The translations under genes were made by a program, and so were the position numbers. Shown piece by piece: positions 10,874 through 25,539 of a stretch of 64,000 nucleotides of DNA (position 1 is its first letter; every line of letters begins with the position of its first letter). Where the stretch lies: positions 1 to 64,000 of the IMG/VR virus record IMGVR_UViG_3300046488_000208, one strand, 5' to 3'. Under the pieces are notes generated by a model. The model was not told where the DNA came from, ran no database searches, and worked only from the letters and a program-made list of their open reading frames with translations. Origin of the DNA: a virus.

Positions 10874-10916
10874 AAATCGGGGAAGATACACTGTTTTATC
10901 GCAGTGCCCCGTCCAT

Positions 10917-11250: not shown

Positions 11251-11253
11251 TAT

Positions 11254-11327
11254 AGCGATGTAGTCTCAATGGTTAGAGCAGGACTCTTATAAAGTCAAGG
11301 TTGTGGGTTCAAGTCCCACCTTCGCTA
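11254..11327 (+). tRNA. tRNA-Ile (anticodon TAT)
   Basis: Acceptor AGCGATG / CTTCGCT with one mismatch, anticodon stem GACT / AGTC with loop CTTATAA, T-arm GTGGG-TTCAAGT-CCCAC. A UAU anticodon reads AUA directly; most bacteria instead use a lysidine-modified CAU tRNA. AUA is frequent in this AT-rich genome. Confidence 0.78.
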
Positions 11328-11331
11328 CGTA

Positions 11332-11411
11332 TGAAACACAGTGCTCATAGTACGAAACTGTTATAAAGGAGTAGTTAAACCGAAATTCAGAAGAAAATCG
11401 GCTGTGTTTCA
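11332..11411 (+). ncRNA. Long-stem inter-tRNA RNA
   Basis: TGAAACACAG and CTGTGTTTCA form a perfect ten-base-pair helix enclosing 60 nt. Confidence 0.45.
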
Positions 11412-11458
11412 AACTTTTTAAAAGTTCTTTGAGTGATTAACCGATTTTGTTAATCCAT

Positions 11459-11472
11459 GTATTTATGTTAAA
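11459..11472 (+). promoter_or_regulatory. GTATTTAT motif copy
   Basis: GTATTTATgtTAAA, 9 nt before the ATG at 11482. Confidence 0.5.
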
Positions 11473-11481
11473 AATAAATAT

Positions 11482-11814
11482 ATGGAAAAAATTTGTAAGA
11501 AACATGGTTTGACAGAATATGTCATTCGTATTGATGGACGTTCAAGATGTAAAAAATGTGCTGTTGATGCTGTTCAAAAAAGAAGACATGTATTAAAAGA
11601 AAAAGCAGTTGCATACAAAGGTGGAAAATGTGTAAAGTGTGGATATAATAAATATGTTGGAGCACTTGAATTTCACCATACTAATGGGGATAAAGAATTT
11701 GGTATTGGTGCAAAAGGTTATACAAGAAGTTGGGAAAAAGTAAAAGAAGAATTAGATAAATGTATATTAGTATGTTCAAATTGTCATAAAGAAATTGAAG
11801 GAAATATAATTTAA
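11482..11814 (+). CDS. HNH endonuclease (110 aa)
   Basis: CXXC pairs at CKKC and CVKC, then the HNH core ALEFHHTNGDKEF and CILVCSNCHKEIEG (about residues 60-106). The small size, basic N-terminus and GTATTTAT leader place it with the free-standing homing endonucleases of this region. The TAA stop ends one base before tRNA-Asn at 11816. Confidence 0.85.
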   Translation: MEKICKKHGLTEYVIRIDGRSRCKKCAVDAVQKRRHVLKEKAVAYKGGKCVKCGYNKYVGALEFHHTNGDKEFGIGAKGYTRSWEKVKEELDKCILVCSNCHKEIEGNII

Positions 11815-11815
11815 T

Positions 11816-11888
11816 GCCTCAGTAGCTCAGTGGTAGTAGCGGTGGTCTGTTAAACCAAAGGTCGTAAGTTCAATCCTTACCTGGGGCG
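11816..11888 (+). tRNA. tRNA-Asn (anticodon GTT)
   Basis: Acceptor GCCTCAG / CTGGGGC, anticodon stem TGGT / ACCA with loop CTGTTAA (regular U33), T-arm GTAAG-TTCAATC-CTTAC. Discriminator G followed by CA. Confidence 0.87.
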
Positions 11889-11911
11889 CAACAAATTGGT
11901 AATATGAACGA

Positions 11912-11947
11912 TAGCATTGATTTTGCACAATAGCACGAACAATGCTA
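11912..11947 (+). ncRNA. Inter-tRNA hairpin
   Basis: TAGCATTG / CAATGCTA, eight perfect pairs, loop of 20 nt, between tRNA-Asn and the gene at 11988. Confidence 0.4.
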
Positions 11948-11987
11948 CCATTCAAAAGTGATGATAACATATTAAATATCAATAACT

Positions 11988-12263
11988 ATGAAAAAAAAAC
12001 CATTTTTACCTATGTCATGTAAAGGAGTAAAATGCATGATAGTTGGTTGCAGAGAACTTGCTTCTCATAAAGTTGGTGAAGAAAATATTTGGTGTAGAGA
12101 TGAAGGTATTGGAAATGACGAGTATTTAAAACATCAACAGTTTGATGAATCACATAATGCAACAACTTATTTATGTGAAGAACATTTTAAATTTGTTATG
12201 AAAAGAGAAACTGAATATAATACTATTGAAGATAATCGATTTGAAGGTCGATTAATAAAATGA
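11988..12263 (+). CDS. Cys-rich small protein, paralogue of the gene at 19376 (91 aa)
   Basis: Contains CKGVKCMIVGC near residue 11, LASHK, EENIW, and YLCEEHF near residue 64, suggesting a zinc-binding fold with Cys and His ligands. The gene at 19376 shares the same order of motifs, including RETEYNTI. Overlaps the next gene by 4 nt. Function unknown. Confidence 0.6.
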   Translation: MKKKPFLPMSCKGVKCMIVGCRELASHKVGEENIWCRDEGIGNDEYLKHQQFDESHNATTYLCEEHFKFVMKRETEYNTIEDNRFEGRLIK

Positions 12264-12547
12264 AAATTGATTATTTAACACCTGTTTATGTTGATAAGAT
12301 TGAAAAGCCACTAGAAGAAGGCAAATGTTATATTTCAAAAGAATTTGGCATTGCAATTCACTTATGTGCTTGCGGATGTGGGGAAGAAACAGTAATGGAT
12401 TTAAAACCTAATTGGAAAGATGGATGGAATTTAATTGAAAATATTGATGGTACAATATCATTTACTCCATCAATTGGTAATTGGTCCGGTCAAAACCCGT
12501 ATCATGCACATTATTTTATTACAAATAATAAAATAATTTGGTTATGA
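12260..12547 (+). CDS. DUF6527-like small protein (95 aa), paralogue of the gene at 14720
   Basis: Central HLCACGCGEE motif with three cysteines, then LKPNWKDGW, DGTISFTPSIGNW and PYHAHYFI. I associate the HLCxCGCG-E plus PSIGN pattern with DUF6527, a small putative metal-binding family; the link is from memory and unverified. A second copy with about two-thirds identical residues lies at 14720. Confidence 0.6.
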   Translation: MKIDYLTPVYVDKIEKPLEEGKCYISKEFGIAIHLCACGCGEETVMDLKPNWKDGWNLIENIDGTISFTPSIGNWSGQNPYHAHYFITNNKIIWL

Positions 12548-12555
12548 AAATAAAT

Positions 12556-12628
12556 GCCGAAATAACTCAATTGGTAGAGTATCTGATTCGTATTCAGAAT
12601 GTTGCAGGTTCGATTCCTGCTTTTGGCT
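12556..12628 (+). tRNA. tRNA-Thr (anticodon CGT)
   Basis: Acceptor GCCGAAA / TTTTGGC, D-stem ACTC / GAGT, anticodon stem TCTGA / TCAGA with loop TTCGTAT, T-arm GCAGG-TTCGATT-CCTGC. Discriminator T followed by CA. Confidence 0.82.
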
Positions 12629-12646
12629 CAAAATTTTGATATAATA

Positions 12647-12862
12647 ATGGAAAGATTTCATATATTTGAATGGAACAAATGGGATAAAGAATATTCCATG
12701 ATTATCCTTTCAGAAGAAGATATTAAAAATGAAATTAATTTAAGGGGTGCAGGTTTTGAAATACTTGTTATTCCCAATAAATTTGAAAATACATCAAATG
12801 AATATCTCGATTTTTGGAAAAAAATAACTTTAATGAGAAGTGGAAGAATAATATACATATAA
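12647..12862 (+). CDS. Unknown small protein (71 aa)
   Basis: MERFHIFEWNKWDKEYS; beta-strand-like segments alternate with charged helices. The start at 12647 follows the tRNA end by 18 nt; an upstream in-frame start would lie inside the tRNA. No family recognised. Confidence 0.5.
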   Translation: MERFHIFEWNKWDKEYSMIILSEEDIKNEINLRGAGFEILVIPNKFENTSNEYLDFWKKITLMRSGRIIYI

Positions 12863-12866
12863 TAAT

Positions 12867-12951
12867 GCCGATATCCTATAGTGGTCGATTAGGCTAGTTT
12901 TGTAAACTAGATGCTAATAACTCACCGGGGGTTCGAATCCCTCTATCGGCT
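12867..12951 (+). tRNA. tRNA-Thr (anticodon TGT) with enlarged variable region
   Basis: Acceptor GCCGATA / TATCGGC, D-stem CCTA / TAGG, anticodon stem CTAGT / ACTAG with loop TTTGTAA. The 16-nt variable region is larger than expected for Thr. A Tyr(GTA) reading needs a shifted loop that breaks the stem. Confidence 0.7.
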
Positions 12952-12966
12952 CAAATTCAAATAGTT

Positions 12967-13185
12967 ATGGAAAGTTTGCCCAGTGAAAATCACGAAGAAC
13001 GTTTCTTGAAGAAATTACAATCAAGATTTAAAGAGTATGTTGATTTAACTCCGTACTTCATAAAAGTTGCAATTGTCACAATAATTGTTTTCCTTTGTTC
13101 GATATTTATTTGGTACAGTTTTCTTCGTATAGATAAAAACAAGCCAGTAATTGAAAACATTGTTGACCAATTTAAAAAGAAATAA
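12967..13185 (+). CDS. Small single-pass membrane protein (72 aa)
   Basis: A charged N-terminal half (residues 1-28) is followed by one hydrophobic segment VAIVTIIVFLCSIFIWYSF (about 34-52) and a lysine-rich tail. Topology probably N-in or N-out single span. No family recognised. Confidence 0.6.
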   Translation: MESLPSENHEERFLKKLQSRFKEYVDLTPYFIKVAIVTIIVFLCSIFIWYSFLRIDKNKPVIENIVDQFKKK

Positions 13186-13189
13186 ACCT

Positions 13190-13261
13190 GCCTCCATAGT
13201 TCAACGGATAGAACGGATGCCTTCTAAGCAACAAATTGGGGTTCGATTCCCCGTGGGGGTA
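13190..13261 (+). tRNA. tRNA-Arg (anticodon TCT)
   Basis: Acceptor GCCTCCA / TGGGGGT, D-stem GTTC / GAAC, anticodon loop CTTCTAA, T-arm GGGG-TTCGATT-CCCC. Discriminator A followed by CA. Confidence 0.83.
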
Positions 13262-13277
13262 CAAATAAAATTAAAAT

Positions 13278-13388
13278 ATGTTTCCTTATTTTTCTGAAAT
13301 GGCAAAACAACAACGAAAAGATGAATTGAAATTCGCTTTGGTGTTGTTAATATTAGCAGTTATTGCAACTGCACTTATGCTCTTATAG
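13278..13388 (+). CDS. Small membrane protein (36 aa), TAG stop
   Basis: MFPYFSEMAKQQRKDELKF, then a single hydrophobic segment ALVLLILAVIATALMLL up to the stop. The tail-anchored layout is plausible for a phage membrane peptide. An internal ATG (13296) is an alternative start. Ends in TAG; suppression would add five residues before a TAA. Confidence 0.5.
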   Translation: MFPYFSEMAKQQRKDELKFALVLLILAVIATALMLL

Positions 13389-13449
13389 TTTAATGGATAG
13401 AATTAAATACATTATTTTTTATGTCTATACGATTTTTATAAATAATGAA

Positions 13450-13463
13450 GTATTTATGATAAA
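13450..13463 (+). promoter_or_regulatory. GTATTTAT motif copy
   Basis: GTATTTATgaTAAA, 6 nt before the ATG at 13470. Confidence 0.5.
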
Positions 13464-13469
13464 AATACC

Positions 13470-14087
13470 ATGAATACTTATAATGAAAAAGAACTTGAAA
13501 AGTTAATAATTTACGAAAATAAAAGTTATTCAGAAATTGGAAAAATATTTGGTGTTACTGGTGGTGCAATAAAAAAAGCAGCACTAAGATTTGGAATTTC
13601 ATTACCGAGAAGACGTGATATTAATCCCAATGAAACATTTAATAAGGGGAAAGCATTTATTGAATATAAAAGGGGTATATGTAAAAATTGTTGTGTTGAA
13701 ATTATCATGTATCCTGAAAGAGATAGTGAATTTTGCTCCAATAAATGTCATTGCGAATATGAATATCGACAATATATTGAAAGATGGAAAAATGGTAAAG
13801 AAAGCGGAATCATCGGGAAATTTTCAATGTCAAATCACATAAAAAAATATTTCTTTGAAAAATTTAATAATAAATGTCAAAAGTGTGGCTGGGGAGAAAA
13901 AAATGAACACAGTAATAAAATTCCACTTCAACATCATCATGTTGATGGAAATTCATTAAATAATAAAGAAGAAAATATTGAACTTTTATGTCCAAACTGT
14001 CATTCATTAACAAAAAATTTTGGAAGTAGAAATAAAAATGCAACTAATGGAAGGTCCGAATATTTTGGAAGAAAAAAGCACAAGTAA
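13470..14087 (+). CDS. HNH homing endonuclease (205 aa)
   Basis: N-terminal HTH (SYSEIGKIFGVTGGAIKKAA), a CKNCC...CSNKC knuckle (about 72-95) and a full HNH core: CQKCGWGEKN, IPLQHHHVDGN, NIELLCPNCHSLT (about 138-185). Its last ten bases overlap the start of the class II tRNA at 14078. Closely related in design to the genes at 16491 and 8783. Confidence 0.87.
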   Translation: MNTYNEKELEKLIIYENKSYSEIGKIFGVTGGAIKKAALRFGISLPRRRDINPNETFNKGKAFIEYKRGICKNCCVEIIMYPERDSEFCSNKCHCEYEYRQYIERWKNGKESGIIGKFSMSNHIKKYFFEKFNNKCQKCGWGEKNEHSNKIPLQHHHVDGNSLNNKEENIELLCPNCHSLTKNFGSRNKNATNGRSEYFGRKKHK

Positions 14088-14167
14088 AACGTAATTGGAT
14101 GACCGTCCCAGTTTCCTAAACTGGTATCACTAATGTGATATGTGGGTTCGAGTCCCACCTCTGTGCA
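14078..14167 (+). tRNA. tRNA with long variable arm, anticodon reads CCT (Arg?)
   Basis: Anticodon stem CCAGT / ACTGG with loop TTCCTAA, variable-arm hairpin ATCAC / GTGAT, T-arm GTGGG-TTCGAGT-CCCAC. The acceptor GCACAAG pairs imperfectly with TCTGTGC. A class II variable arm normally belongs to Ser, Leu or Tyr, so the CCT (Arg) anticodon is out of place. The 5' end lies in the upstream HNH gene. Confidence 0.6.
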
Positions 14168-14182
14168 CTAAAAACAATTGAT

Positions 14183-14425
14183 ATGGCAACAGCGATTTGT
14201 CCTAAATGTGGAAAAGTAATTTATGCACCTGACAGTTCAGTGCAATTGGAAAAAGATTTTGTCTTGTGTTGTGACGAAGTAATATACATACCAACAAATC
14301 AAGATTATGACATTTTCTTTAATGAATTATTAAATCCTTCTGAACCCAATGAAGCATTGAAAAAAGCTGTATCACGTTATAAAAAACGAACTAATGAAAT
14401 TCACGATAGAGAAACTCAAGAATAA
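14183..14425 (+). CDS. Small protein with one CPKC zinc-ribbon half (80 aa)
   Basis: MATAICPKCGKVIYAP opens with a CXXC pair, and a second pair VLCCDEV sits near residue 33, consistent with a compact zinc ribbon. The rest is helical and acidic. ATG 14183 is chosen because upstream in-frame starts lie within the tRNA. Overlaps the next gene out of frame by 32 nt. Confidence 0.55.
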   Translation: MATAICPKCGKVIYAPDSSVQLEKDFVLCCDEVIYIPTNQDYDIFFNELLNPSEPNEALKKAVSRYKKRTNEIHDRETQE

Positions 14426-14600
14426 ACTTGAATATACTGATGGAAAGACTTTTGTTTCACAAACCGGATATGCATTTATAGATGAAAGTGGCTGTTGTAT
14501 AATAATTGTTTACGGTGAAGGTCGCAGAGACGGAATGTCTAAGTATTTAACAGAAGACGGTGACGTACTGCACATAAAATATAGAATAATGCCTTTGTAG
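14394..14600 (+). CDS. Unknown small protein (68 aa); TAG stop supplied by a tRNA gene
   Basis: MKFTIEKLKNKLEYTDGK, mixed strands and helices. The TAG stop is bases 8-10 of tRNA-Arg(TCG), so gene and tRNA overlap by 10 nt. No family recognised. Confidence 0.5.
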   Translation: MKFTIEKLKNKLEYTDGKTFVSQTGYAFIDESGCCIIIVYGEGRRDGMSKYLTEDGDVLHIKYRIMPL

Positions 14601-14665
14601 CATAACGGATAATGCGCTTGTCTTCGAAACAAGGTCTTATGGGGGTTCGAGTCCCTCCAGGGGTA
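14591..14665 (+). tRNA. tRNA-Arg (anticodon TCG)
   Basis: Acceptor GCCTTTG / CAGGGGT, anticodon stem CTTGT / ACAAG with loop CTTCGAA, T-arm GGGGG-TTCGAGT-CCCTC. Discriminator A followed by CA. Confidence 0.86.
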
Positions 14666-14719
14666 CAAAAAACCTTAAGTATTAGGGTTTATAGTATAAT
14701 AAAAAGTAATGTGAAAACA

Positions 14720-14998
14720 ATGGAATTAATACCTATATTTGTTGATACTATTCCAATTGAAATTGAAGAAGGAAAAGTATTTATTACAAAAAAATATTGT
14801 GTTGCAGTACATCTTTGTGCGTGTGGTTGTGGTGAAAAAACAGTTATGAACTTTAAACCCAATTGGAAAGACGGTTGGACATTAATTGAAAATCCCGATG
14901 GTACGGTTTCATTTTCTCCGTCAATTGGTAATTTCACTGGTCAAGACCCATATCATGCACATTATTTTATAGTGAATAACAAAATAGTTTGGTGTTAA
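14720..14998 (+). CDS. DUF6527-like small protein (92 aa), paralogue of the gene at 12260
   Basis: Shares with the earlier copy the central HLCACGCGE motif, FKPNWKDGW, SPSIGNF and PYHAHYFIV. ATG 14720 starts MELIPIFVDT, aligned with MKIDYLTPVYVD of the paralogue; upstream in-frame starts lie in the tRNA. Two copies 2.4 kb apart within a tRNA array suggest a local segmental duplication. Confidence 0.6.
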   Translation: MELIPIFVDTIPIEIEEGKVFITKKYCVAVHLCACGCGEKTVMNFKPNWKDGWTLIENPDGTVSFSPSIGNFTGQDPYHAHYFIVNNKIVWC

Positions 14999-15010
14999 AA
15001 ATAAAATGAA

Positions 15011-15139
15011 ATGAAAAAACTGATTGATTATTTTACGTGTCGTCCGACAAGGCAAGCATTGCTATTTGGATTGACGATTCTTTTTGGTGAAATCATATTT
15101 TTTATTTTATTATGTACCGGAACTATTGTGGTACAATAA
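15011..15139 (+). CDS. Small membrane protein (42 aa)
   Basis: MKKLIDYFTCRPTRQ followed by a hydrophobic segment ALLFGLTILFGEIIFFILL. Ends 3 nt before tRNA-Arg(ACG). No family recognised; supported by a clean single-span pattern and position in a gene-dense stretch. Confidence 0.5.
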   Translation: MKKLIDYFTCRPTRQALLFGLTILFGEIIFFILLCTGTIVVQ

Positions 15140-15141
15140 AT

Positions 15142-15216
15142 GCACCCGTAGCATAATTGGATTAGTGCATTGGTCTACGAAACCAAAGGTTGTGAGTTCG
15201 AATCTCACCGGGTGTA
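15142..15216 (+). tRNA. tRNA-Arg (anticodon ACG)
   Basis: Acceptor GCACCCG / CGGGTGT, anticodon stem TTGGT / ACCAA with loop CTACGAA, T-arm GTGAG-TTCGAAT-CTCAC. An A34 Arg tRNA normally needs TadA editing by the host. Confidence 0.88.
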
Positions 15217-15233
15217 CAAAACAAAACTCAAAC

Positions 15234-15247
15234 GTATTTATATTAAA
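15234..15247 (+). promoter_or_regulatory. GTATTTAT motif copy
   Basis: GTATTTATatTAAA, 11 nt before the ATG at 15259. Confidence 0.5.
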
Positions 15248-15258
15248 GGTTTGAAACG

Positions 15259-15933
15259 ATGATTGAATATAACGAAAATGAATTACGTCAAATTGTAGCG
15301 GAATGTAATACGTATAGGGATGTTTTACATAAATTTGAAAGAAATGAATCAGGTGCATCATATAAGACACTACATAGACGTTTAAATGAATGGAAGATTG
15401 ATACTTCACATTTTTTAAACAGAAGTGAGTTAATGATAGCAAATCAAGGAATTTATTCGAGAAAAAGCAATGAAGAAATTTTTAGTATAAATGATGTTGG
15501 AAGAAAAACGATAAAAGACAGAATAATTGCTGAAAATTTAATTGAATATAAATGTAAGTTTTGTGGTCAAGATGAAAATTGGCATGGTAAAAAAATTTCA
15601 TTAATTCTTGACCATATAAATGGTGTTAACAATGATAATCATCTGGAAAATTTGAGGTTCTTATGTCCAAATTGTAATGCAACACTGGAAACACATTGTA
15701 AAGGAGCATCCGCATTATCACCGAAACCAATTAAAGTAAAAAAGATAAGAATAAGTCCACCAAGATTAAGTCAAAGAAAAGTTAAAGAGCGACCATCATT
15801 GGATGAACTAAACGGAATGTTAAAAACAATGTCATATCGTGCAATCGGTAAAAAATATAATGTTAGTGACACTGCAATTAGAAGGTGGATAAATTTATAT
15901 CATAAAACAAATATATTGGATAAAATAATTTAA
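15259..15933 (+). CDS. HNH endonuclease with C-terminal HTH (224 aa)
   Basis: The HNH core lies mid-protein: YKCKFCGQDENWHGK, SLILDHINGVNND, LRFLCPNCNATLETH (about residues 97-150). The C-terminal 35 residues form a helix-turn-helix (YRAIGKKYNVSDTAIRRWI), a NUMOD-like DNA-binding tail. A basic proline-rich linker joins them. Free-standing homing endonuclease with the GTATTTAT leader. Confidence 0.87.
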   Translation: MIEYNENELRQIVAECNTYRDVLHKFERNESGASYKTLHRRLNEWKIDTSHFLNRSELMIANQGIYSRKSNEEIFSINDVGRKTIKDRIIAENLIEYKCKFCGQDENWHGKKISLILDHINGVNNDNHLENLRFLCPNCNATLETHCKGASALSPKPIKVKKIRISPPRLSQRKVKERPSLDELNGMLKTMSYRAIGKKYNVSDTAIRRWINLYHKTNILDKII

Positions 15934-15997
15934 AATGATAATTATGAAGTATCTCAACACATCGTAAATCAATCCTGCTATTGATTATGCGATTGGT

Positions 15998-16246
15998 ATG
16001 TTATTTAGACAAACAAAAAAGCAGGAACAGCCAGAACTCGTGAAAGACGATGCATTCTACAGAAAGCATCCGAAAATTATGAGACTTTGGCTTGTGGAAA
16101 TCACGTCTACGGATGGTGAAATCCAAAAGTTTTACGTTAGCGGTATGACAAAATTTGATGCCTATGAAAAGGCTGATGGTTACAGGTACTGGACTGCAGA
16201 CGTTGGACTTAAAAATAAGTTGAGTACTTTTAGGCTTATGCCTTAA
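15998..16246 (+). CDS. Unknown small protein (82 aa)
   Basis: Basic N-terminus (RQTKKQEQPELVKDD), then LWLVEITSTDGEIQKFYVSG, a likely beta hairpin, and a tyrosine-rich segment. No family recognised. It lies between an endonuclease gene and tRNA-Glu. Confidence 0.5.
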   Translation: MLFRQTKKQEQPELVKDDAFYRKHPKIMRLWLVEITSTDGEIQKFYVSGMTKFDAYEKADGYRYWTADVGLKNKLSTFRLMP

Positions 16247-16277
16247 AGAAAAATTGCAGGGGAAGACCCTGCAACAT

Positions 16278-16351
16278 GCACCGGTAGTTTAACTGGAAAG
16301 AATTGCCCCGTCTCAGGGGTACGATATGTGGTTCGAATCCCATTCGGTGTG
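16278..16351 (+). tRNA. tRNA-Glu (anticodon CTC)
   Basis: Acceptor GCACCGG / TCGGTGT, anticodon stem GCCCC / GGGGT with loop GTCTCAG. The T-stem is weak (two pairs plus mismatches). Phage Glu tRNAs usually carry TTC, so identity is moderately certain. Confidence 0.7.
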
Positions 16352-16361
16352 CAATAACATC

Positions 16362-16432
16362 GCAGGTGTAGCATAGGGGTAGTGCATTGGCTTGCCGAGC
16401 CGAGGACGAGGGTTCGATTCCCTTCACCTGCT
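16362..16432 (+). tRNA. tRNA-Gly (anticodon GCC)
   Basis: Acceptor GCAGGTG / CACCTGC, D-stem GCAT / GTGC, anticodon stem TTGGC / GCCGA with loop TTGCCGA, T-arm GAGGG-TTCGATT-CCCTT. Confidence 0.83.
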
Positions 16433-16467
16433 CTACTAAGTTCGAAAATCTTTTTTCGCATTTCATA

Positions 16468-18331: not shown

Positions 18332-18360
18332 TGTAACATTTTCAGAAATTTTACGTATAA
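18332..18360 (+). promoter_or_regulatory. ECF-type promoter of the bL12 gene
   Basis: TGTAAC, 16-nt spacer, CGTATAA; 33 nt from CGT to the ATG at 18387. Starts 9 nt after the end of the RNase P RNA. Confidence 0.75.
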
Positions 18361-18386
18361 TTGCATAATAATTAATAATAGAAATA

Positions 18387-18764
18387 ATGGCAACAAATCC
18401 AAAATTATTCGCAATTGCTGACACATTGACAAAATTGACGGTGTTAGAAGCAAAACAACTCATTGATATTCTTGAAAATGATTATGGCATCAAGGGTCAG
18501 AGCATTGTAACTCCGATTGGTGTACCAACACCCGAAGTTGCAGTAAAAGAACAGACTGAATTTGATGTTTATCTGAAAGAAATTGGTGGACAAAAATTAC
18601 ATGTCATCAAAAAAGTTAATGAATGCTTGAGATTGGGACTCAAAGAATCAAAAGAACTGGTCGATAAATGTCCGGGTCTTCTGACAGGAAAAGTATCAAA
18701 AACCGATGCATTGATACTTAAAACCGAACTGGAAAATGTGGGTGCAGTAGTTGAAATAAAATAA
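18387..18764 (+). CDS. rplL: Ribosomal protein bL12 (L7/L12) homologue (125 aa)
   Basis: Full-length copy of the ribosomal stalk protein that recruits translation factors. N-terminal dimerisation helices (ADTLTKLTVLEAKQLIDIL, about 11-29) are followed by a short hinge with Pro and Val, then the C-terminal domain from about residue 56: EFDVYLKEIGGQKLHVIKKV, LGLKESKELVDKCPG and ENVGAVVEIK. LGLKE-x-KELVD is the diagnostic factor-binding face. Length matches the bacterial family. Some uncultivated phages are known to carry bL12. It probably enters host ribosomes and changes factor recruitment (inference). It has its own ECF-type promoter. Confidence 0.93.
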   Translation: MATNPKLFAIADTLTKLTVLEAKQLIDILENDYGIKGQSIVTPIGVPTPEVAVKEQTEFDVYLKEIGGQKLHVIKKVNECLRLGLKESKELVDKCPGLLTGKVSKTDALILKTELENVGAVVEIK

Positions 18765-18766: not shown

Positions 18767-19072
18767 ATGAAAGGAATCATAAAATATCAACAAAAGTTGT
18801 ATAAAAAGGCAAGTGACCCTCACAAAGTTAAAAAGGGCGACTTGATTAAACTTGAATGTAAGAGAGGTAGTGATTACTTTCAATACAATGGTATTTATAC
18901 AGTTATCAGCGATTCCAGAGAGATTCACATTAAAAATTATAAGGGAGAAGGTTTAACATTATGCTTGAAACTTGGATATAACGTATTTTATGATGATTAT
19001 TTCAGATTAGTTGAAACCAAAAGAAAGAAGTCATTACCAAACGTTTTAAAAGAAGAACAATATGAAAACTGA
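18767..19072 (+). CDS. Unknown beta-rich protein (101 aa)
   Basis: VKKGDLIKLECKRG and YNGIYTVISDSREIHIKNY suggest a small beta-barrel (KOW/SH3-like pattern), followed by a lysine-rich tail. Begins two bases after the bL12 stop, so it shares that transcript, and overlaps the next gene by 11 nt. No family recognised. Confidence 0.6.
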   Translation: MKGIIKYQQKLYKKASDPHKVKKGDLIKLECKRGSDYFQYNGIYTVISDSREIHIKNYKGEGLTLCLKLGYNVFYDDYFRLVETKRKKSLPNVLKEEQYEN

Positions 19073-19379
19073 ATTGTGGAAAATATTGGTTCCAGCTTCC
19101 GGCAACAATGACAAGGAGTTCACTTATGAGCATCATAAGGCATGGGATGCATTTGTCAAAGACCTTACAGGTGGAGTAACCGTCATGAAGACTGCCAAAG
19201 GTCAGTGGGTAAGTCCACACGGTCAGTTATATGTTGACAGAATGATTCCTTGTAGAATTATCTGTACCAAAGAGCAAATCAATAAAATTGTTGATTTTAC
19301 TTTAGTGCATTATGACCAAGAAGCAATTCTTGCATATAAAATTAGTAGTGTAGTAATTTTAAAACATAAAAAGCAATGA
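19062..19379 (+). CDS. Unknown protein (105 aa)
   Basis: WKILVPASGNNDKEF, a tryptophan-rich first half with GQWVSPHGQLYVDRMIPC, then a helical EQINKIVDFTLVHYDQEAILAYKIS. It looks like a compact globular domain often seen as a conserved hypothetical in large phages; no function known to me. Overlaps its neighbours by 11 and 4 nt. Confidence 0.6.
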   Translation: MKTELWKILVPASGNNDKEFTYEHHKAWDAFVKDLTGGVTVMKTAKGQWVSPHGQLYVDRMIPCRIICTKEQINKIVDFTLVHYDQEAILAYKISSVVILKHKKQ

Positions 19380-19636
19380 GCAATACAATTAAACCCAAAT
19401 TGCCGTTAACATGTAAAGGAGTAAAATGCATGAAAGTTGGTTGCCAAAATCTTGCTTCACATAAAATAGGCGAAGAAAATATTTGGGACAAAGAACTTCA
19501 ATCAGAAGAGCATCAAGCATTTGAAAACAGTCATAATTTAACAACATATTTATGTGATAATTGCTTTAATCAAATAATGACAAGAGAAACTGAATATAAT
19601 ACAATTAAAGACGACAGATATGGGAATGTTCGGTGA
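19376..19636 (+). CDS. Cys-rich small protein, paralogue of the gene at 11988 (86 aa)
   Basis: CKGVKCMKVGC, LASHKIGEENIW, TTYLCDNCF and TRETEYNTIKDDR match the 91-residue copy in order; here the second half has CDNC instead of CEEH, keeping a possible four-ligand zinc site. Overlaps both neighbours. Confidence 0.6.
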   Translation: MSNTIKPKLPLTCKGVKCMKVGCQNLASHKIGEENIWDKELQSEEHQAFENSHNLTTYLCDNCFNQIMTRETEYNTIKDDRYGNVR

Positions 19637-19838
19637 AATAAATGCAGAAGCCAATGCCAAGCAATTGGAAGGCATAATTCTTGACCTTATAAAAGGTGAC
19701 CGTTGGAGAGACTGCAGAAGTGCAGCCAGAGGCGTTGCCAAAGAAAAATTATATCCTTGGTATCTCAGTGAATGCTCAGAAGCGTTTATTGAAGCAAATC
19801 CCGAAATAAAAAAAGAATTTGGAGAATTGAAATCATGA
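19620..19838 (+). CDS. Unknown small protein (72 aa)
   Basis: Helical, with a WRDCRSAARGVAKEKLYPWYLSEC centre. The ATG at 19620 or an internal ATG at 19626 could serve. Overlaps the previous gene by 17 nt and the next by one base. Confidence 0.5.
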   Translation: MGMFGEINAEANAKQLEGIILDLIKGDRWRDCRSAARGVAKEKLYPWYLSECSEAFIEANPEIKKEFGELKS

Positions 19839-19996
19839 AAACAAAACTGGATATCGGAAATTTGCTTCAATTAGCAGAAGAATTAGTGTATGATGGCAGA
19901 ATTGAATTTGCAGAAGAAGCCGTAATTCCTGTTCAAATGTTAGAAACAGAGGAAGGCGAAAAATATCAATTGAAATTAGTAATGACTTTAATATAG
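19838..19996 (+). CDS. Unknown small acidic protein (52 aa), TAG stop
   Basis: MKTKLDIGNLLQLAEELVYDG, acidic and helical, ending in LVMTLI. The TAG stop is 3 nt before tRNA-Ser; suppression would read into the tRNA to a TAA. The start shares a base with the preceding stop. Confidence 0.5.
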   Translation, partial: KTKLDIGNLLQLAEELVYDGRIEFAEEAVIPVQMLETEEGEKYQLKLVMTLI

Positions 19997-19999
19997 CAA

Positions 20000-20088
20000 G
20001 GAGAGGTGCTTGAGTGGTCGAAAAGGGCAACCTGCTAAGTTGTTGGGCGACTAAAATTGCCCCGTAGGTTCGAATCCTATCCTCTCCG
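20000..20088 (+). tRNA. tRNA-Ser (anticodon GCT), second copy
   Basis: Acceptor GGAGAGG / CCTCTCC, anticodon stem GCAAC / GTTGT with loop CTGCTAA, long variable arm, discriminator G followed by CA. Confidence 0.88.
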
Positions 20089-20131
20089 CAAACAAATCAT
20101 GAGTTGAGTCAACCCTTTCTTAAATATTAAA

Positions 20132-20145
20132 GTATTTATAATAAA
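20132..20145 (+). promoter_or_regulatory. GTATTTAT motif copy
   Basis: GTATTTATaaTAAA, 8 nt before the ATG at 20154. Confidence 0.5.
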
Positions 20146-20153
20146 ATATTGTT

Positions 20154-20573
20154 ATGAATACTAATGAAAAGGGAGATATCGGTTTGGCTGCTGTGATTGC
20201 AGATGTTGTCAGAAAAGGATTTTTTGTGTTTTTGCCGTTCTCAGATAGAACACATGTCGATTTGATTATCGCAGATAAGAATATGAAAATTCAAAGGGTA
20301 CAGATTAAATATATTACCGTAAATAAAACAGGTGTATTACAAATCGTAACATCAAGTGTTGTAAACGGTAAAAAAGTACCTGTTGACCTATCTAAGACAG
20401 ATATTTGGGCAATTTATTGTCCCAATACCGATAAAATATATTATGTCACAACACTTGAATTATTGGGTAAAAGGGCAATGAGTTTAAGAGTTAGTGAGAC
20501 AAAACTAAGTCAACCCGGAATACATCTTGCTGACAATTATTTAGATTTAAGCAAAGTGTGGCACATATTATAG
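20154..20573 (+). CDS. PD-(D/E)XK-type homing endonuclease-like protein (139 aa), TAG stop
   Basis: The pattern GDIGLAAVIADVVRKGFFV, then HVDLIIADKNMKIQRVQIKY (Asp near 42, Gln-x-Lys near 58) matches group-I-intron-type PD-(D/E)XK endonucleases (PDDEXK_5-like). The GTATTTAT leader and location beside tRNA-Ser fit a free-standing homing endonuclease. It stops with TAG immediately before a terminator, so here TAG must act as a stop. Confidence 0.72.
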   Translation: MNTNEKGDIGLAAVIADVVRKGFFVFLPFSDRTHVDLIIADKNMKIQRVQIKYITVNKTGVLQIVTSSVVNGKKVPVDLSKTDIWAIYCPNTDKIYYVTTLELLGKRAMSLRVSETKLSQPGIHLADNYLDLSKVWHIL

Positions 20574-20582
20574 AAAACCAGC

Positions 20583-20605
20583 AAGTCAAAAAATTTGACT
20601 TTTTC
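20583..20605 (+). terminator. Terminator after the PD-(D/E)XK gene
   Basis: AAGTCAAA / TTTGACTT stem with T-tract; the -35 part of the next promoter starts at its end. Confidence 0.8.
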
Positions 20606-20636
20606 TGTAACATTTTTATTAGTATTTACGTATAAC
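20606..20636 (+). promoter_or_regulatory. ECF-type promoter with short leader
   Basis: TGTAAC, 17-nt spacer, CGTATAA, only 12 nt from CGT to the ATG at 20641; most copies have 32-36 nt, so this transcript may be nearly leaderless. Confidence 0.65.
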
Positions 20637-20640
20637 TATT

Positions 20641-20925
20641 ATGAAAAAGTTACCGACAATAGAAATCACCGAACTATTCATGGTCAAAGCAGACTGGAAT
20701 AGAACCTTTATTGGTCAGATAATCAGAAAAACTGATGAAGACGGTCTGTCAATTAATCTTGGCAACGTCACAGTAGACGAAGGAAAAATCTGGAGCAAAG
20801 CTGAAACCCAAGAAGAACTTGGAAAATATCTTGATGATATTTGTACATTAAAACTCGACTGTAACCTTCACGGTAACGGTGGTGTTACTTCTATTCTTGC
20901 TGAGACTCTGTTCAATCACAATTAG
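20641..20925 (+). CDS. Unknown protein (94 aa), TAG stop in frame with the next gene
   Basis: IEITELFMVKADWNRTFIGQIIRK and DGLSINLGNVTVDEGKIWS suggest a beta-rich N-terminal half. The stop TAG (20923-20925) is followed directly by the ATG of the next frame in phase, so amber suppression would yield one 184-residue protein. No family recognised. Confidence 0.6.
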   Translation: MKKLPTIEITELFMVKADWNRTFIGQIIRKTDEDGLSINLGNVTVDEGKIWSKAETQEELGKYLDDICTLKLDCNLHGNGGVTSILAETLFNHN

Positions 20926-21195
20926 ATGCAGGACTTTGAACTACTTAAGCGAACATACCCTGTCAGTGAGTTTGATAGATTTTGTGATGGGTATGAATAT
21001 ATATTAAAAAATAGTACTGAAGATGAGAGAGAAGAATGGGGAATTGATGTAAATGAATTACAAAGAGTAATTACAAAGGGAGAGAAGTACATATATCAAG
21101 TAGCAAAGGAAGGACAGGAATTCAAGACAATGTATTTATGTTTTACCAACTATGCTATTATAAGGAAAAAAATATACAAACTTGAAGATGATTAG
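20926..21195 (+). CDS. Unknown protein (89 aa), TAG stop
   Basis: MQDFELLKRTYPVSEFDRF; mostly helical and acidic, then YIYQVAKEGQEFKTMYLCF. Could be translated alone or as a readthrough extension of the preceding gene. Overlaps the next gene. Confidence 0.55.
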   Translation: MQDFELLKRTYPVSEFDRFCDGYEYILKNSTEDEREEWGIDVNELQRVITKGEKYIYQVAKEGQEFKTMYLCFTNYAIIRKKIYKLEDD

Positions 21196-21487
21196 TATAA
21201 AAGAAAAATTTACTGAAATAGCAAAAAAATATCACTTGCATCATTATGGTGATTTGAAATCAGCCATTGAAGAAATGATTATATACATAAATGATATGAA
21301 AGCAATTGTTAAAGTTGATGTCAGAAAAGAATTACCGTTAGAATTACAAACAGTAACTACCGATAAAGGTGAATGTTATTACAGTCATGTACACCTGCAA
21401 TGGTTTCATGCAGAGAATAATATGCCATTTGATGCAAATGAATTAAAACCACAATATTGGGAGAAATTAATTGATGCAAGAAAGTAA
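21188..21487 (+). CDS. Unknown protein (99 aa)
   Basis: MISIKEKFTEIAKKYHLHHYG, then SAIEEMIIYINDM and a C-terminal HLQWFHAENNMPFDANELKP. ATG 21188 is preferred to an upstream TTG because it overlaps the preceding stop in the compact style of this cluster. No family recognised. Confidence 0.55.
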   Translation: MISIKEKFTEIAKKYHLHHYGDLKSAIEEMIIYINDMKAIVKVDVRKELPLELQTVTTDKGECYYSHVHLQWFHAENNMPFDANELKPQYWEKLIDARK

Positions 21488-21688
21488 ATGCAAGGACTTG
21501 GCTATTTATATGATGAAAACACGGGAGAAAAAATTCTCTGTTTGGTCCGACAAGGCAGTTATGGCAGGTATTTGAAACGCAGAAAATCAGGTAAGGATGG
21601 ATTTCATTTGACAGATGAAGAAATATATTTAAGAGAAAATAAGGAAAAATTAGAAGAATTGAAGGCAAATAAAAAAATATTTTGTTAA
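21488..21688 (+). CDS. Unknown basic protein (66 aa)
   Basis: MQGLGYLYDENTGEKILCLVRQG, then a lysine/arginine-rich stretch (YLKRRKSGKDGF) and a coiled C-terminus. Starts immediately after the preceding stop. The TAA ends four bases before the tRNA at 21693. Confidence 0.55.
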   Translation: MQGLGYLYDENTGEKILCLVRQGSYGRYLKRRKSGKDGFHLTDEEIYLRENKEKLEELKANKKIFC

Positions 21689-21692
21689 ATAC

Positions 21693-21764
21693 GGGCATAT
21701 AGTTCAGAGGTAGAACATTGGTCTCTAAAACCAATTGCCACGGGTTCGAGTCCCGTTATGCCCT
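21693..21764 (+). tRNA. Amber-suppressor tRNA (anticodon CTA)
   Basis: Acceptor GGGCATA / TATGCCC, D-stem GTTC / GAAC, anticodon stem TTGGT / ACCAA with loop CTCTAAA, T-arm ACGGG-TTCGAGT-CCCGT; a perfect 72-nt class I cloverleaf. The CUA anticodon reads UAG. Leu(TAG) is excluded by the register and by the absence of a class II arm. The GGTCTCxAAAACC core looks like a tRNA-Trp in which CCA changed to CTA, but the discriminator is T rather than G, so the amino acid carried is unknown. Confidence 0.85.
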
Positions 21765-21773
21765 CAAAAATTT

Positions 21774-21911
21774 ATGAATATGAAAAAAATTAAATTGATT
21801 TTTATAATTTTATTTGTTTTGACAATGATGTTATTATCATCATGCAATCCAAAATTTTGTCCTGCATATGCAGATAGAGGACATAAAAGTGATACACATT
21901 CTAAAAGTTAA
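21774..21911 (+). CDS. Small lipoprotein (45 aa)
   Basis: A second ATG at 21780 gives MKKIKLIFIILFVLTMMLL, a classic signal peptide, followed by the lipobox LSSC and a 25-residue hydrophilic mature part (CNPKFCPAYADRG...). Predicted to be lipid-anchored in the host envelope. Very small phage lipoproteins are often lysis or superinfection-exclusion factors; which, if either, cannot be told. Confidence 0.65.
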   Translation: MNMKKIKLIFIILFVLTMMLLSSCNPKFCPAYADRGHKSDTHSKS

Positions 21912-21914
21912 TTA

Positions 21915-22244
21915 ATGAGTAGAACTAAAAAAGATTTGAAAAGCAACAGAAGGGGTTTTGGTCTATATGGACATAAGCCTCAGAGAAAATTAACTCCTTT
22001 TATTCATGATGCAAATAAAATTGCAGGCAGGAATGAAGTATTAGTGCACCAACCTGATAATGATATTAGTCAAGAGGGATTCGATAACATGTATTGTTCA
22101 GATGGTTCACATTGGCATAATGCAAAGACTGTCAGGGCAAAAAGAAAACAAGTACGGGCAGAAAGAGATTACATAACATCACAGGCAAGGGCAAGAATAA
22201 AAAAACAAGACAAAAAAGAAATTGATAATTTATTAGGAAATTAA
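21915..22244 (+). CDS. Basic unknown protein (109 aa)
   Basis: MSRTKKDLKSNRRGFGLYGHKP, a histidine/aspartate-containing centre (VLVHQPDNDIS, CSDGSHWHN) and a highly basic C-terminal helix (VRAKRKQVRAERDYITS). Probably nucleic-acid binding from charge alone. No family recognised. Confidence 0.55.
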   Translation: MSRTKKDLKSNRRGFGLYGHKPQRKLTPFIHDANKIAGRNEVLVHQPDNDISQEGFDNMYCSDGSHWHNAKTVRAKRKQVRAERDYITSQARARIKKQDKKEIDNLLGN

Positions 22245-22318
22245 AATAATTGTAGTAATTTTGAACTCTCTAAGTATTTATATACCGCAGAGTATTATTA
22301 ACAATTAAATTTAAAACA

Positions 22319-22396
22319 ATGAAGTAGGTTAACAAAAATGAAAAAATAGGTTATCAATTCGTAACTAACTTAGTATTTATAGTAAATAAAAGCATT
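22319..22396 (+). other. In-frame TAG-containing extension upstream of an endonuclease gene
   Basis: ATG AAG TAG at 22319 is followed by 23 further sense codons in phase with the ATG at 22397. With amber readthrough the endonuclease would gain 26 residues. The stretch also contains the GTATTTAT motif at 22373, so a non-coding leader is at least as likely. Confidence 0.3.
22373..22386 (+). promoter_or_regulatory. GTATTTAT motif copy
   Basis: GTATTTATagTAAA, 10 nt before the ATG at 22397. Confidence 0.5.
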
Positions 22397-23101
22397 ATGT
22401 ACGATACTGAGTCCTTCATTAAAGAAGCCAAAAAAATTCATGGCGAAAAATACAACTATTCATTAGTCAATTACAAGAACGTTTCAACAAAAATTAGAAT
22501 AATTTGTTCAAAACATAATGTTTTTGAACAAACTCCAAAAAATCATATCCTTAGAAAATCTGGATGTCCGAAATGTGCTATCGAATATAAAGCAAATAAA
22601 TTGAAACTTTCCCAAACCGAATTTATTATTATTTCGAATAAAACACATAGTAATAAATATGATTATTCCTTGGTCAATTATTTTAACAATAAAACTCATG
22701 TCGATATAATATGCCCAATACATGGTGTTTTTGAACAAGCACCTGCTCACCACATGAGAGGTATTGGATGTCCAATTTGTAACGATTCAAAGGGTGAATT
22801 AAAAATAAAATCTTTTTTGAATAAAAATCGAATAACATATATTCGAAATAAAATGTTTAATAATTGTAAAGATATTGGTAAATTAAAATTTGATTTTTAT
22901 TTACCTAATTTAAATATTATGATTGAATTTGATGGCATTCAACATTTTAAGCCAAATCATGCTTTTGGTGGAACTGAAGAATTTAATAATATTCAAAGAA
23001 GAGATAATATAAAAAATAAATATTGTGATGAAAATTTAATACAATTAATAAGAATAAGGTATAATGAAAATATTGAAAACAAATTAAATTTTTTAATATG
23101 A
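22397..23101 (+). CDS. EDxHD/Vsr-like homing endonuclease with two HG-F-CPxC modules (234 aa)
   Basis: Two repeats of a zinc-like module (about 5-60 and 72-130), each Y-N-Y-S-L-V-N-Y, C-x-x-H-x-V-F-E-Q and G-C-P-x-C, precede a Vsr-type nuclease fold: LKFDFYLPNLNIMIEFDGIQ, then HF and a conserved RRDNIKNKYC (about 165-215). This is the layout of EDxHD homing endonucleases. Its TGA stop overlaps the ATG of the next gene. An interrupted relative lies at 54923/57362. Confidence 0.85.
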   Translation: MYDTESFIKEAKKIHGEKYNYSLVNYKNVSTKIRIICSKHNVFEQTPKNHILRKSGCPKCAIEYKANKLKLSQTEFIIISNKTHSNKYDYSLVNYFNNKTHVDIICPIHGVFEQAPAHHMRGIGCPICNDSKGELKIKSFLNKNRITYIRNKMFNNCKDIGKLKFDFYLPNLNIMIEFDGIQHFKPNHAFGGTEEFNNIQRRDNIKNKYCDENLIQLIRIRYNENIENKLNFLI

Positions 23102-23457
23102 AAGATAAGTAGATAATAAAATTAGTTACTGTTGTTCGACAAGATTTGAGTGCTGGACAACAATTAGTTCAATCTGGGCACGCAATTGCTGAATTCATTC
23201 AGCATTTTCCCTCAGAATTTCAAGAGTGGAAAAGAGATTCAAATTATCTCATTTCGTTATCGATTGATAACGAAGAAAGACTTCAAAGACTATTTTACAA
23301 ATTACAGGACAATGGTGCTAATGTTGTTGCATTCACAGAACCCGACATTGACAACCAGTTGACCAGTATTTGCTATTATGGTACGCCCGAAATGCGTAAA
23401 ATTACGCAGAATTTAGACTTAGCACTTGAAGAAGTTAAAGTCGCAATTAAAAATTAA
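23098..23457 (+). CDS. Peptidyl-tRNA hydrolase 2-like protein with in-frame TAG at codon 5
   Basis: PTH2 enzymes release peptides from stalled peptidyl-tRNA. The first strand and active-site loop read IIKLVTVVRQDLSAGQQLVQ then SGHAIAEF, and LYYKLQDNG-type and FTEPDIDNQLTSICYYG segments follow the family pattern. The natural ATG (23098) overlaps the preceding stop, but codon 5 is TAG (23110-23112). Starting at the TTG at 23146 would remove strand 1 and the catalytic basic residue region, so readthrough or a rare non-ATG start (ATA at 23113) is needed. A matching CUA tRNA lies 1.4 kb upstream. A sequencing error cannot be excluded. Confidence 0.75.
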
Positions 23458-23503
23458 AGTCGCAATTAAATTTATAAATGAAGTATTTATTTTCGCAATT
23501 CAA

Positions 23504-23517
23504 GTATTTATATTAAA
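23504..23517 (+). promoter_or_regulatory. GTATTTAT motif copy
   Basis: GTATTTATatTAAA, 9 nt before the ATG at 23527; a weaker copy (GTATTTATTTTC) precedes it at 23483. Confidence 0.5.
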
Positions 23518-23526
23518 TTTGTAATT

Positions 23527-24321
23527 ATGATAGATAAATTAAATTTAAAAGAAAATTCGTTCTACATCGGTACTTGTAGAAACACTAATATTGCTCAATG
23601 GCATAAAGGTGAATTTGTTTTCATTGGTTTTAATTTTGGTATTCCATATATTGAAACCATTAAATATTATGGTGACATTAAAAATACTTCTTTTGATGGC
23701 TTTATCCCCATTGAAGAAATTAATTTTAGTGTTGATAATATAATTAAAGAAAAAAATTTGCAAGACTATAAAAATGGTGCTCGTAAAATATATCAAAATT
23801 TAAATATCAATAATTTAAATTACGAGATATGGAAACCCATTCCAAAATATGAAGGACTTTATTCTGTTTCTAATTTGGGTAGAGTAAAAAAACATGGAAA
23901 ATCTTTATCTGGCAATAAAATAATGAAACAAAATTTTTCACGTGAATATTTGGTCGTTGGTCTAACTGATTATGAACATATTCGTAAAACATATAGAGTA
24001 CATAGATTGGTAGCATTAACATTCAAATATAATGATAACACATCACTTGAGGTCAATCATATAAATGGAATAAAAACCGATAATCGTGATATTAATTTAG
24101 AGTGGATTGAACATGCTGAAAATTCGAAACATATGTATACTTCGGGAAATGTGTGCAAAAAATTGAAACTCGAAGAAGTAATGGAAATTCAACGTTTGTT
24201 ATGTAAAGGTGACTTTTTACAAAAAGATATTGCAAAAAAATTTAACATTAGTCGAAGTACAATATCTGAAATTAATACAGGTAAAAAATGGAAAAATATT
24301 AAATCAATGAAACATTTATAG
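23527..24321 (+). CDS. NUMOD4-HNH homing endonuclease (264 aa), TAG stop
   Basis: The NUMOD4 motif EIWKPIPKYEGLYSVSNLGR (about 100-120) is followed by the HNH core YRVHRLVALTF, LEVNHINGIKTDNRDINLEW (about 158-200) and a C-terminal HTH (QKDIAKKFNISRSTISEINT, NUMOD1-like). The N-terminal 90 residues are extra and unrecognised. Ends in TAG; suppression adds only six residues. Confidence 0.9.
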   Translation: MIDKLNLKENSFYIGTCRNTNIAQWHKGEFVFIGFNFGIPYIETIKYYGDIKNTSFDGFIPIEEINFSVDNIIKEKNLQDYKNGARKIYQNLNINNLNYEIWKPIPKYEGLYSVSNLGRVKKHGKSLSGNKIMKQNFSREYLVVGLTDYEHIRKTYRVHRLVALTFKYNDNTSLEVNHINGIKTDNRDINLEWIEHAENSKHMYTSGNVCKKLKLEEVMEIQRLLCKGDFLQKDIAKKFNISRSTISEINTGKKWKNIKSMKHL

Positions 24322-24346
24322 ATAGACATCAGACCGCCATAATAAT

Positions 24347-24371
24347 TTGATATCACAAATTGTGATATCAA
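24347..24371. promoter_or_regulatory. Perfect 25-bp palindrome, operator-like
   Basis: TTGATATCACAA-A-TTGTGATATCAA. It lies between the TAG stop of the endonuclease gene and the gene at 24461 and lacks a T-tract, so an operator is more likely than a terminator. Confidence 0.5.
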
Positions 24372-24406
24372 GATTTCATAAAATGCGTAACGCAAACTAT
24401 GTAATA

Positions 24407-24422
24407 TAAACAAATTTGTTTA
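24407..24422. promoter_or_regulatory. 16-bp palindrome
   Basis: TAAACAAATTTGTTTA, 39 nt before the ATG at 24461; second symmetric site in the same intergenic region. Confidence 0.4.
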
Positions 24423-24460
24423 CACAAAATAAATTAAATTAATCTTAAATAAACATTATC

Positions 24461-24796
24461 ATGGAAACAATAGCAAAAACCGATATCGCAAAAATGAAAG
24501 CCGATATTAAAGACAAAGTTGAACTTCAGAAGTTCTATAAAAATCAGAGAAAAACCGATAAAATCATCGGTGAAAGAAAGATGCCTGCAAGTGAAGCAAC
24601 TTATAAGCATCAGACTAACAGAGAAGATTTACGAGTAATGTACGCAGCTTATGGTATTGCCAGAGGCAGGAGTTTTTCTCAGATTGAAAATCATTATCCG
24701 GAAGACGGTCATCCACTTCAAAAATATCAAAAAACAATTGATAGAATTTTGGAGAAGTACACGGTGTTAGTGAAGGTTGAAGTACCAACCGAATAA
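24461..24796 (+). CDS. Unknown protein (111 aa)
   Basis: Charged helices (IAKMKADIKDKVELQKFY), a central MYAAYGIARGRSFSQIENHY segment and a C-terminal helix ending in VEVPTE. A single-gene unit with palindromes upstream and a terminator downstream, so it may be separately regulated. No family recognised. Confidence 0.6.
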   Translation: METIAKTDIAKMKADIKDKVELQKFYKNQRKTDKIIGERKMPASEATYKHQTNREDLRVMYAAYGIARGRSFSQIENHYPEDGHPLQKYQKTIDRILEKYTVLVKVEVPTE

Positions 24797-24801
24797 AATA
24801 A

Positions 24802-24825
24802 AAAGGGCGTAGTTGCCCTTTTTTT
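24802..24825 (+). terminator. Rho-independent terminator
   Basis: AAAGGGC / GCCCTTT with T-tract, six nt after the stop of the gene at 24461. Confidence 0.9.
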
Positions 24826-24888
24826 CTTGCATATTTGCTACGGATTGTGTAGTTTTACGCAAAATAACTTTATATTAATCTCAAATGA

Positions 24889-25539
24889 ATGTCAGAAGAG
24901 AAACAGGATGGAGTAATATTCACTCCAAAAATTGAAGAAGAAGGAAGAATTGACGAGTTTCCACTTATTAAAGAAGTCGATGTAGAGGATAAAATAATTG
25001 AAGTAACACCAAGTGTACAATCAGTTATCCCACCAGAAGAACTTCAAAAAATCAATGATGAAATTAAAGCCGAAATAGTGGCTGAAGAAAAAAATGACGG
25101 AGCAATTGACGGTGCTGTTGACGGTGCTGTTGACAATGATTCTGAAGATTTAAACATAAAAACTTATGTCAAAATAACACCAACCCTTTATATTAAACCA
25201 GCAGGTAGTGAAAAAAATAAAGAAGGCGAAGATGTCAAATTATATAAGATTTTAAATCCTGAAACTAATATTGTAGAAAAACGACAATTAACTGATGGCG
25301 AAAAACACGATATTTTAGTCCGTGATTTAAAAGAATCTCGCATAAAATTTCATCCAATAAAAAATGCGGTAAAAACTGTCGGAGTAACCACAGTTACCAG
25401 TTCAATTGGCAGAAAACGCTTGGTGAAAGACAAAGGAGTACAAACAAACATAACTACCAATCAGTTCGACAAAGACTATCGTAAGAAACGTCAACGTAAG
25501 AACAGAATGGCACGGGCATCCCGTAAAGCAAGTCGATAG
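24889..25539 (+). CDS. Acidic-to-basic unknown protein (216 aa), TAG stop
   Basis: The first 90 residues are strongly acidic with an imperfect repeat (GAIDGAVDGAVDND); the last 25 are strongly basic (DYRKKRQRKNRMARASRK). This polarity suggests a disordered linker or nucleic-acid-binding tail. The TAG stop is 2 nt before the next ATG. No family recognised. Confidence 0.55.
   Translation: MSEEKQDGVIFTPKIEEEGRIDEFPLIKEVDVEDKIIEVTPSVQSVIPPEELQKINDEIKAEIVAEEKNDGAIDGAVDGAVDNDSEDLNIKTYVKITPTLYIKPAGSEKNKEGEDVKLYKILNPETNIVEKRQLTDGEKHDILVRDLKESRIKFHPIKNAVKTVGVTTVTSSIGRKRLVKDKGVQTNITTNQFDKDYRKKRQRKNRMARASRKASR

Follow-up and report, generated by a model that had tools for sequence, protein, structure and literature searches.

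Can a virus refit the protein-making machinery of its host by supplying part of the ribosome itself? We examined a 64,000-nucleotide stretch of the IMG/VR virus record IMGVR_UViG_3300046488_000208 (hereafter the window), which encodes a ribosomal protein, bL12 (L7/L12), among its translation RNAs. Judged from its gene content, this virus may indeed refit host translation during infection, because it has a complete bL12, an apparent promoter type of its own, tRNAs and an RNase P ribozyme, with tmRNA in its relatives. The locus offers a defined, testable case for viral remodeling of host ribosomes via an exchangeable stalk protein. Its promoter class, which also stands before tmRNA and a suppressor-type tRNA, could tell when the phage bL12 is made, and the locus points to a type of RNase P RNA that is widespread in phages.

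The bL12 gene (Table 1) encodes a complete protein with both domains, as the preliminary description had claimed. The N-terminal dimerization and uL10-binding domain matches PF16320 (2.4 × 10−6; 27.6 bits against a Pfam cut-off of 25), the C-terminal factor-binding domain exceeds the cut-off of PF00542 (4.7 × 10−21), and the whole-length NCBIfam equivalog TIGR00855 scores 93.1 bits against a cut-off of 84.4. Dimerization occupies residues ~9 to 46, the hinge ~38 to 56, and factor binding 59 to 125. A PDB search matched L7/L12 chains with E values down to 1 × 10−19. Confidence in the predicted structure is low (mean pLDDT 62); a fold search with this model nonetheless returned solved L7/L12 structures, with a target-normalized TM-score of 0.90 against the factor-binding domain 1ctf. 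K65, V68, I69, K70, G79, L80, E82, and K84 (E. coli numbering), which we take to be the elongation factor-contacting residues of bL12, are all retained in the alignment. At R73 the protein has N, against R or K in the other sequences compared, and at G77 it has R; the hinge is not alanine-rich, the usual alanines being missing. Compared with the bL12 of a relative (L004, below), dN is 0.21 and dS 1.65, for a dN/dS of ~0.13 (one pair, with dS near saturation), and the dimerization domain is the better conserved half. Among the neighbors scanned, no ribosomal-protein or RNA polymerase gene (rplJ, rpoB) adjoins bL12.

Table 1. Features of the bL12 locus and related sites in the window.
Feature	Position	Strand	Basis or remark
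tRNA array, 17 tRNAs, interrupted by small ORFs (some HNH-like)	8654–16433	+	tRNA scan, ORF list
RNase P-like RNA, apparent phage type	18027–18322	+	Rfam RF00010, P4 covariation, terminal U-run
ECF-type promoter of bL12, TGTAAC-N16-CGTA	18332–18357	+	pattern scan
bL12 (ribosomal protein L7/L12), 125 aa	18387–18764	+	Pfam, NCBIfam, PDB, fold search, dN/dS
Five small packed ORFs (18767, 19062, 19376, 19620, 19835)	18767–19996	+	putative bL12 operon
tRNA-Ser(GCU), 3 bases after last ORF of putative bL12 operon	20000–20089	+	tRNA scan
Second ECF-type site, before ORFs 20641–21688 and CUA tRNA	20606–20632	+	pattern scan
tRNA with anticodon CUA (amber suppressor type), 4 bases after ORF 21488–21688	21693–21765	+	tRNA scan
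PTH2-like ORF (weak match)	23146–23457	+	Pfam 24.3 against cut-off 23; NCBIfam cut-off failed
ECF-type site	28471–28497	+	pattern scan
ECF-type site, 30 nt ahead of 334-aa ORF	32041–32066	+	pattern scan
ECF-type site	39704–39730	−	pattern scan; no close ORF start found behind
ECF-type sigma factor, 189 aa, regions 2 and 4	58746–59315	+	PF04542, PF08281, TIGR02937
Seven ECF-type sites (60203, 60612, 61031, 61296, 62848, 63021, 63540)	60203–63565	+	pattern scan

The gene had also been placed behind an ECF-type promoter, and as a sequence class this promoter is genuine. TGTAAC (18332 to 18337) and CGTA (18354 to 18357) are separated by a spacer of 16 nt, and the bL12 ATG follows 29 nt downstream. 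The window has 12 sites of this pattern with the observed spacing, whereas simulated Markov-1 sequence of the same dinucleotide make-up predicts 0.28. An ORF begins 29 to 32 nt past CGTA at 8 of the 12 sites but at 1.7% of random positions (minimum ORF of 30 aa in the first scan and 60 aa in the second). Seven sites cluster just downstream of a sigma factor gene, six of them 29 to 32 nt before an ORF. In this cluster (60203 to 63578), six sites have a second TGTAAC 33 to 34 nt downstream, about where transcripts presumably start. The sigma gene product scores 77 bits against a cut-off of 42.9 for TIGR02937 (NCBIfam), and its ~190 aa hold regions 2 and 4 only (Pfam PF04542 and PF08281), the architecture of an ECF sigma factor. 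This phage sigma most likely reads the TGTAAC/CGTA sites, as the co-occurrence of sites and sigma, and the grouping of sites just past the sigma gene, suggest; host ECF sigmas could be alternative readers of the same sites. Two pattern matches in relatives (G003, position 37944; G002, position 69428) lie within coding sequence and were set aside.

What these sites would control can be read from the genes behind them. The RNase P RNA ends, by reading, in a U-run 9 nt ahead of the bL12 promoter; bL12 therefore probably requires a promoter of its own. The run that follows comprises bL12, five packed ORFs and tRNA-Ser(GCU), and no terminator-like site was found on the + strand of the five-ORF stretch. 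Within this stretch, ORF 19062–19379 matches phrog_3543; it also has a sub-cut-off match to the phage S-adenosylmethionine lyase family. Ten mostly unannotated ORFs scanned against PHROGs yielded hardly any matches. The run behind the site at 20606 consists of four ORFs and then the CUA tRNA. From this spacing, we infer co-transcription within the ECF-headed runs.

The preliminary description had further proposed coordinated control of translation, pairing bL12 with RNase P RNA, tRNAs, PTH2, and a suppressor tRNA. The tRNAs are present (19 in the window, one with anticodon CUA), and coordination is supported for part of the set: predicted ECF sites touch bL12, one tRNA-Ser, the suppressor-type tRNA and, in relatives, tmRNA. 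It does not visibly extend to the RNase P RNA or most of the tRNA array, for which no ECF site was seen. The PTH2 assignment barely passes in Pfam and fails in NCBIfam.

TAG stops cluster around the CUA tRNA, ending 6 of 10 ORFs in 19835 to 25539 versus 3 of 84 elsewhere (Fisher P = 2 × 10−5, for a region picked after inspection). One of them ends ORF 20641–20922 and is followed by an in-frame ATG ORF at 20926, such that read-through would fuse both. Genome-wide TAG recoding was rejected, as TAG terminates 9 of 94 ORFs. Elsewhere, the window has two TnpB-like genes (42052 to 43335 and 55535 to 57312), one behind a serine recombinase with a MerR-type domain (IS607-like). Nucleotide and RNA enzymes are represented by a dATP/dGTP diphosphohydrolase domain (26806 to 27816), an IMPDH/GMP reductase (34724 to 35797), and an RNA ligase (45619 to 46272).

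The RNase P RNA reported beside bL12 proved divergent. Region 18027 to 18322 matches the class A model RF00010 (E = 4.5 × 10−11) with 39.9 bits, under the Rfam gathering score of 100, and we therefore call it an RNase P-like RNA and assign it to a divergent phage type. Covariation in the catalytic helix P4 supports the identification. A core pattern of this RNA matched 63 viral contigs (L020 to L082, up to 482 kb), two of them from the same species as the window. For 54 of the 63, the segment behind a GAGG-type motif can pair with the P4 3′ strand at no fewer than five of six positions. This count is biased toward pairing because the script picked the best-pairing candidate, but the database pattern had not required the 5′ segment. 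Across phage contigs, pair 72 occurs as GC, AU, CG, and UA and pair 74 as GC, AU, and UA; the RNA thus has the P4 helix with bulged U and covarying pairs that is general to RNase P RNA. Rfam scored 18 of 50 tested core-pattern records clearly and one weakly, and smaller records have weak RNase P model matches within tRNA arrays. Some of the 63 contigs have only ~120 nt between the two RNase P halves, which suggests very small RNase P RNAs.

With bacterial class A (RF00010), the phage RNA shares a weak full-length match, a P4 with U bulge, and the AGAUNAAUG and ACAGAA motifs. It differs in its sub-gathering score, in a divergent middle part, and in the J3/4-P4 segment, which is GAGGAAGUU/GAGGAAGCU in nearly all phage copies and GAGGAAAGUC in bacteria. 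Because nearly all copies have GAGGAAG[U/C]UC where the Rfam consensus has GAGGAAAGUCC, these RNAs look like a phage type, one that we found nowhere described in the literature searched. Rfam searches with strict filters found no RNase P RNA in the 735-, 635-, and 636-kb phages, nor did a core-motif scan of the 735-kb genome (the only genome so scanned) find an RNase P core. These absences carry little weight, because the genome-wide Rfam search also missed a copy, in contig L111, that cmscan found.

Is this arrangement kept in other phages? Two contigs, G001 and G002, have the same bL12 and layout as the window. In a third, G003 (L004), bL12 is 73% identical and the tRNA array largely co-linear. 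There, bL12 lies 43 nt behind a tRNA-Leu, itself preceded by tmRNA, in a run of + strand genes with an ECF site at its head, 2.4 kb upstream of bL12. A bL12 promoter in a conserved place was rejected for L004, which has no strict site directly upstream. However, since its gene run is ECF-headed and has no terminator-like site on the + strand, an ECF site precedes bL12 in both phages, though its place has moved. In G002, tmRNA lies ~34 kb upstream of bL12, behind a separate ECF site. Both phage tmRNAs (L004, 7482 to 7836; G002, 77321 to 77673, − strand) have a long predicted tag (AEDIMSIPTSLTRG...AA), and each is in an ECF-headed gene run. A second bL12 paralogue in one genome was rejected, as G002 has a single copy. 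Note that these contigs are fragments; G003 stops short of the sigma region and seemingly also of the expected RNase P RNA place.

A second lineage with full-length bL12 comprises LR756501 (a public 735-kb uncultured phage), L111, and L112. The LR756501 protein is 39% identical to that of the window and 64 to 67% identical to those of L111 and L112. In every phage examined, these three included, bL12 is in or beside a tRNA array (beside it in LR756501), and the phage-type RNase P core recurs on the L111 and L112 contigs, at distances from bL12 of 5 and 23 kb.

The host may be Bacteroidota-like. Leaders in the window are A-rich, and Shine-Dalgarno motifs are no commoner than at random positions (4.8% versus 7.4%). 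This fits a Bacteroidia-type host, because Bacteroidia ribosomes make no use of Shine-Dalgarno sites (PMC9976891). The ribonucleotide reductase matches that of a 635-kb uncultured phage at 59% identity, and the next hits include Bacteroides crAss-like phages. Genome matches of bL12 itself are nearly all from Planctomycetota (40 to 46%, in a motif-limited scan), and the bL12 origin tree has a support of 0.15 where the window pair joins.

bL12 is a multi-copy, exchangeable protein of the ribosomal stalk, so a phage version could replace host copies. Taking the genes together, we lean toward a working phage bL12 that is ECF-timed, exchanges into host ribosomes, and acts with phage tRNAs, tmRNA, and RNase P RNA. 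The huge phage would make full-length bL12 in a timed wave from the ECF-type promoter, most likely read by its own ECF sigma. New copies would then take the place of host bL12 on the uL10 of 50S subunits already present. For EF-Tu, EF-G, and the other translational GTPases that the phage stalk recruits, affinity or kinetics would be altered; together with bL12, the phage tRNAs, tmRNA, and RNase P RNA would sustain elongation and rescue while host function declines. When a phage bL12 was expressed in E. coli, it was detected by mass spectrometry in 70S/100S ribosome fractions (PMC6375957). Ribosomes with the tagged version could not be purified (PMC6375957), so binding may be weak. The changes at R73 and G77, the hinge, and the low-confidence model also count against exchange. 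A wider, more tentative reading is a sigma-timed refit: the phage ECF sigma might turn on bL12, tmRNA, tRNA-Ser, and the amber suppressor tRNA while the phage-specific RNase P RNA class, with host protein, matures phage tRNAs, yielding a partly phage-built apparatus for late phage mRNAs.

The main rival to ribosome exchange, which we hold to be unlikely, is that free phage bL12 is a decoy or inhibitor. Off the ribosome, it would capture EF-Tu, EF-G, stalk-dependent host factors, or stalk-sensing defense proteins, slowing host translation or blocking a defense. As a decoy would allow, conservation covers the factor-binding face but not R73 or the hinge, and a ribosome-acting defense protein is known: the fold search lists 8phj, the cA4-bound Cami1 effector in complex with the ribosome and its bL12. 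However, a decoy could dispense with the N-terminal dimerization domain, which here stays above its Pfam cut-off. Exchange is favored over a decoy because this domain is intact and, between the window and L004, has diverged less than the other half.

It is less likely again that bL12 chiefly helps the neighboring RNA systems, in tmRNA ribosome rescue or tRNA supply, rather than general elongation. It does lie right next to RNase P RNA in the window, and next to tmRNA and tRNA-Leu in L004, but the two phages thus do not have the same neighbor, a search of these contig fragments turned up neither SmpB nor an RNase P protein, and adjacency may mean shared regulation only. We give even less credence to bL12 as a host-derived passenger of little function: its position outside any ribosomal-protein operon and the small ORFs that the tRNA array collects would fit, but its low dN/dS, its own ECF-type promoter, and a comparable position in other huge phages speak against it. 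Bacterial contamination or a mis-binned contig, suggested by some bL12 matches in public "phage" records that resemble bacterial sequence (e.g., MT836236, with a Bacteroidota-type bL12), is very improbable and was rejected, given the agreement of three contigs, the reductase match to a 635-kb phage genome, the tRNA array layout, and the absence of rplJ or rpoB beside bL12.

Exchange of a sigma-timed stalk protein, our preferred reading, can be set against known systems. T4 gp55 and SPO1 gp28 define phage sigma regulons, in which a phage-coded sigma has its own promoter class. The window shares a phage-coded sigma and a separate promoter class with them; it differs in its ECF architecture, its ECF-type promoter, and the translation genes behind the sites. 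Phage-encoded bL12 domains are already known (Mizuno et al. 2019, PMC6375957), including the one case tested in E. coli ribosome fractions. Many of those are domains within larger proteins in varied genomic contexts, whereas the bL12 of the window is complete and two-domain, lies behind a defined ECF-type promoter, and adjoins translation RNAs. Huge phages that combine L7/L12, tRNAs, and tmRNA, as here, are also known from passages of Al-Shayeb et al. 2020 (PMC7162821); those passages describe no ECF regulon linking bL12, tmRNA, and tRNAs, and a term search of the main text finds no mention of RNase P. What is new here is the ECF-type control common to bL12, tmRNA, one tRNA-Ser, and the CUA tRNA, together with the link to a phage RNase P RNA.
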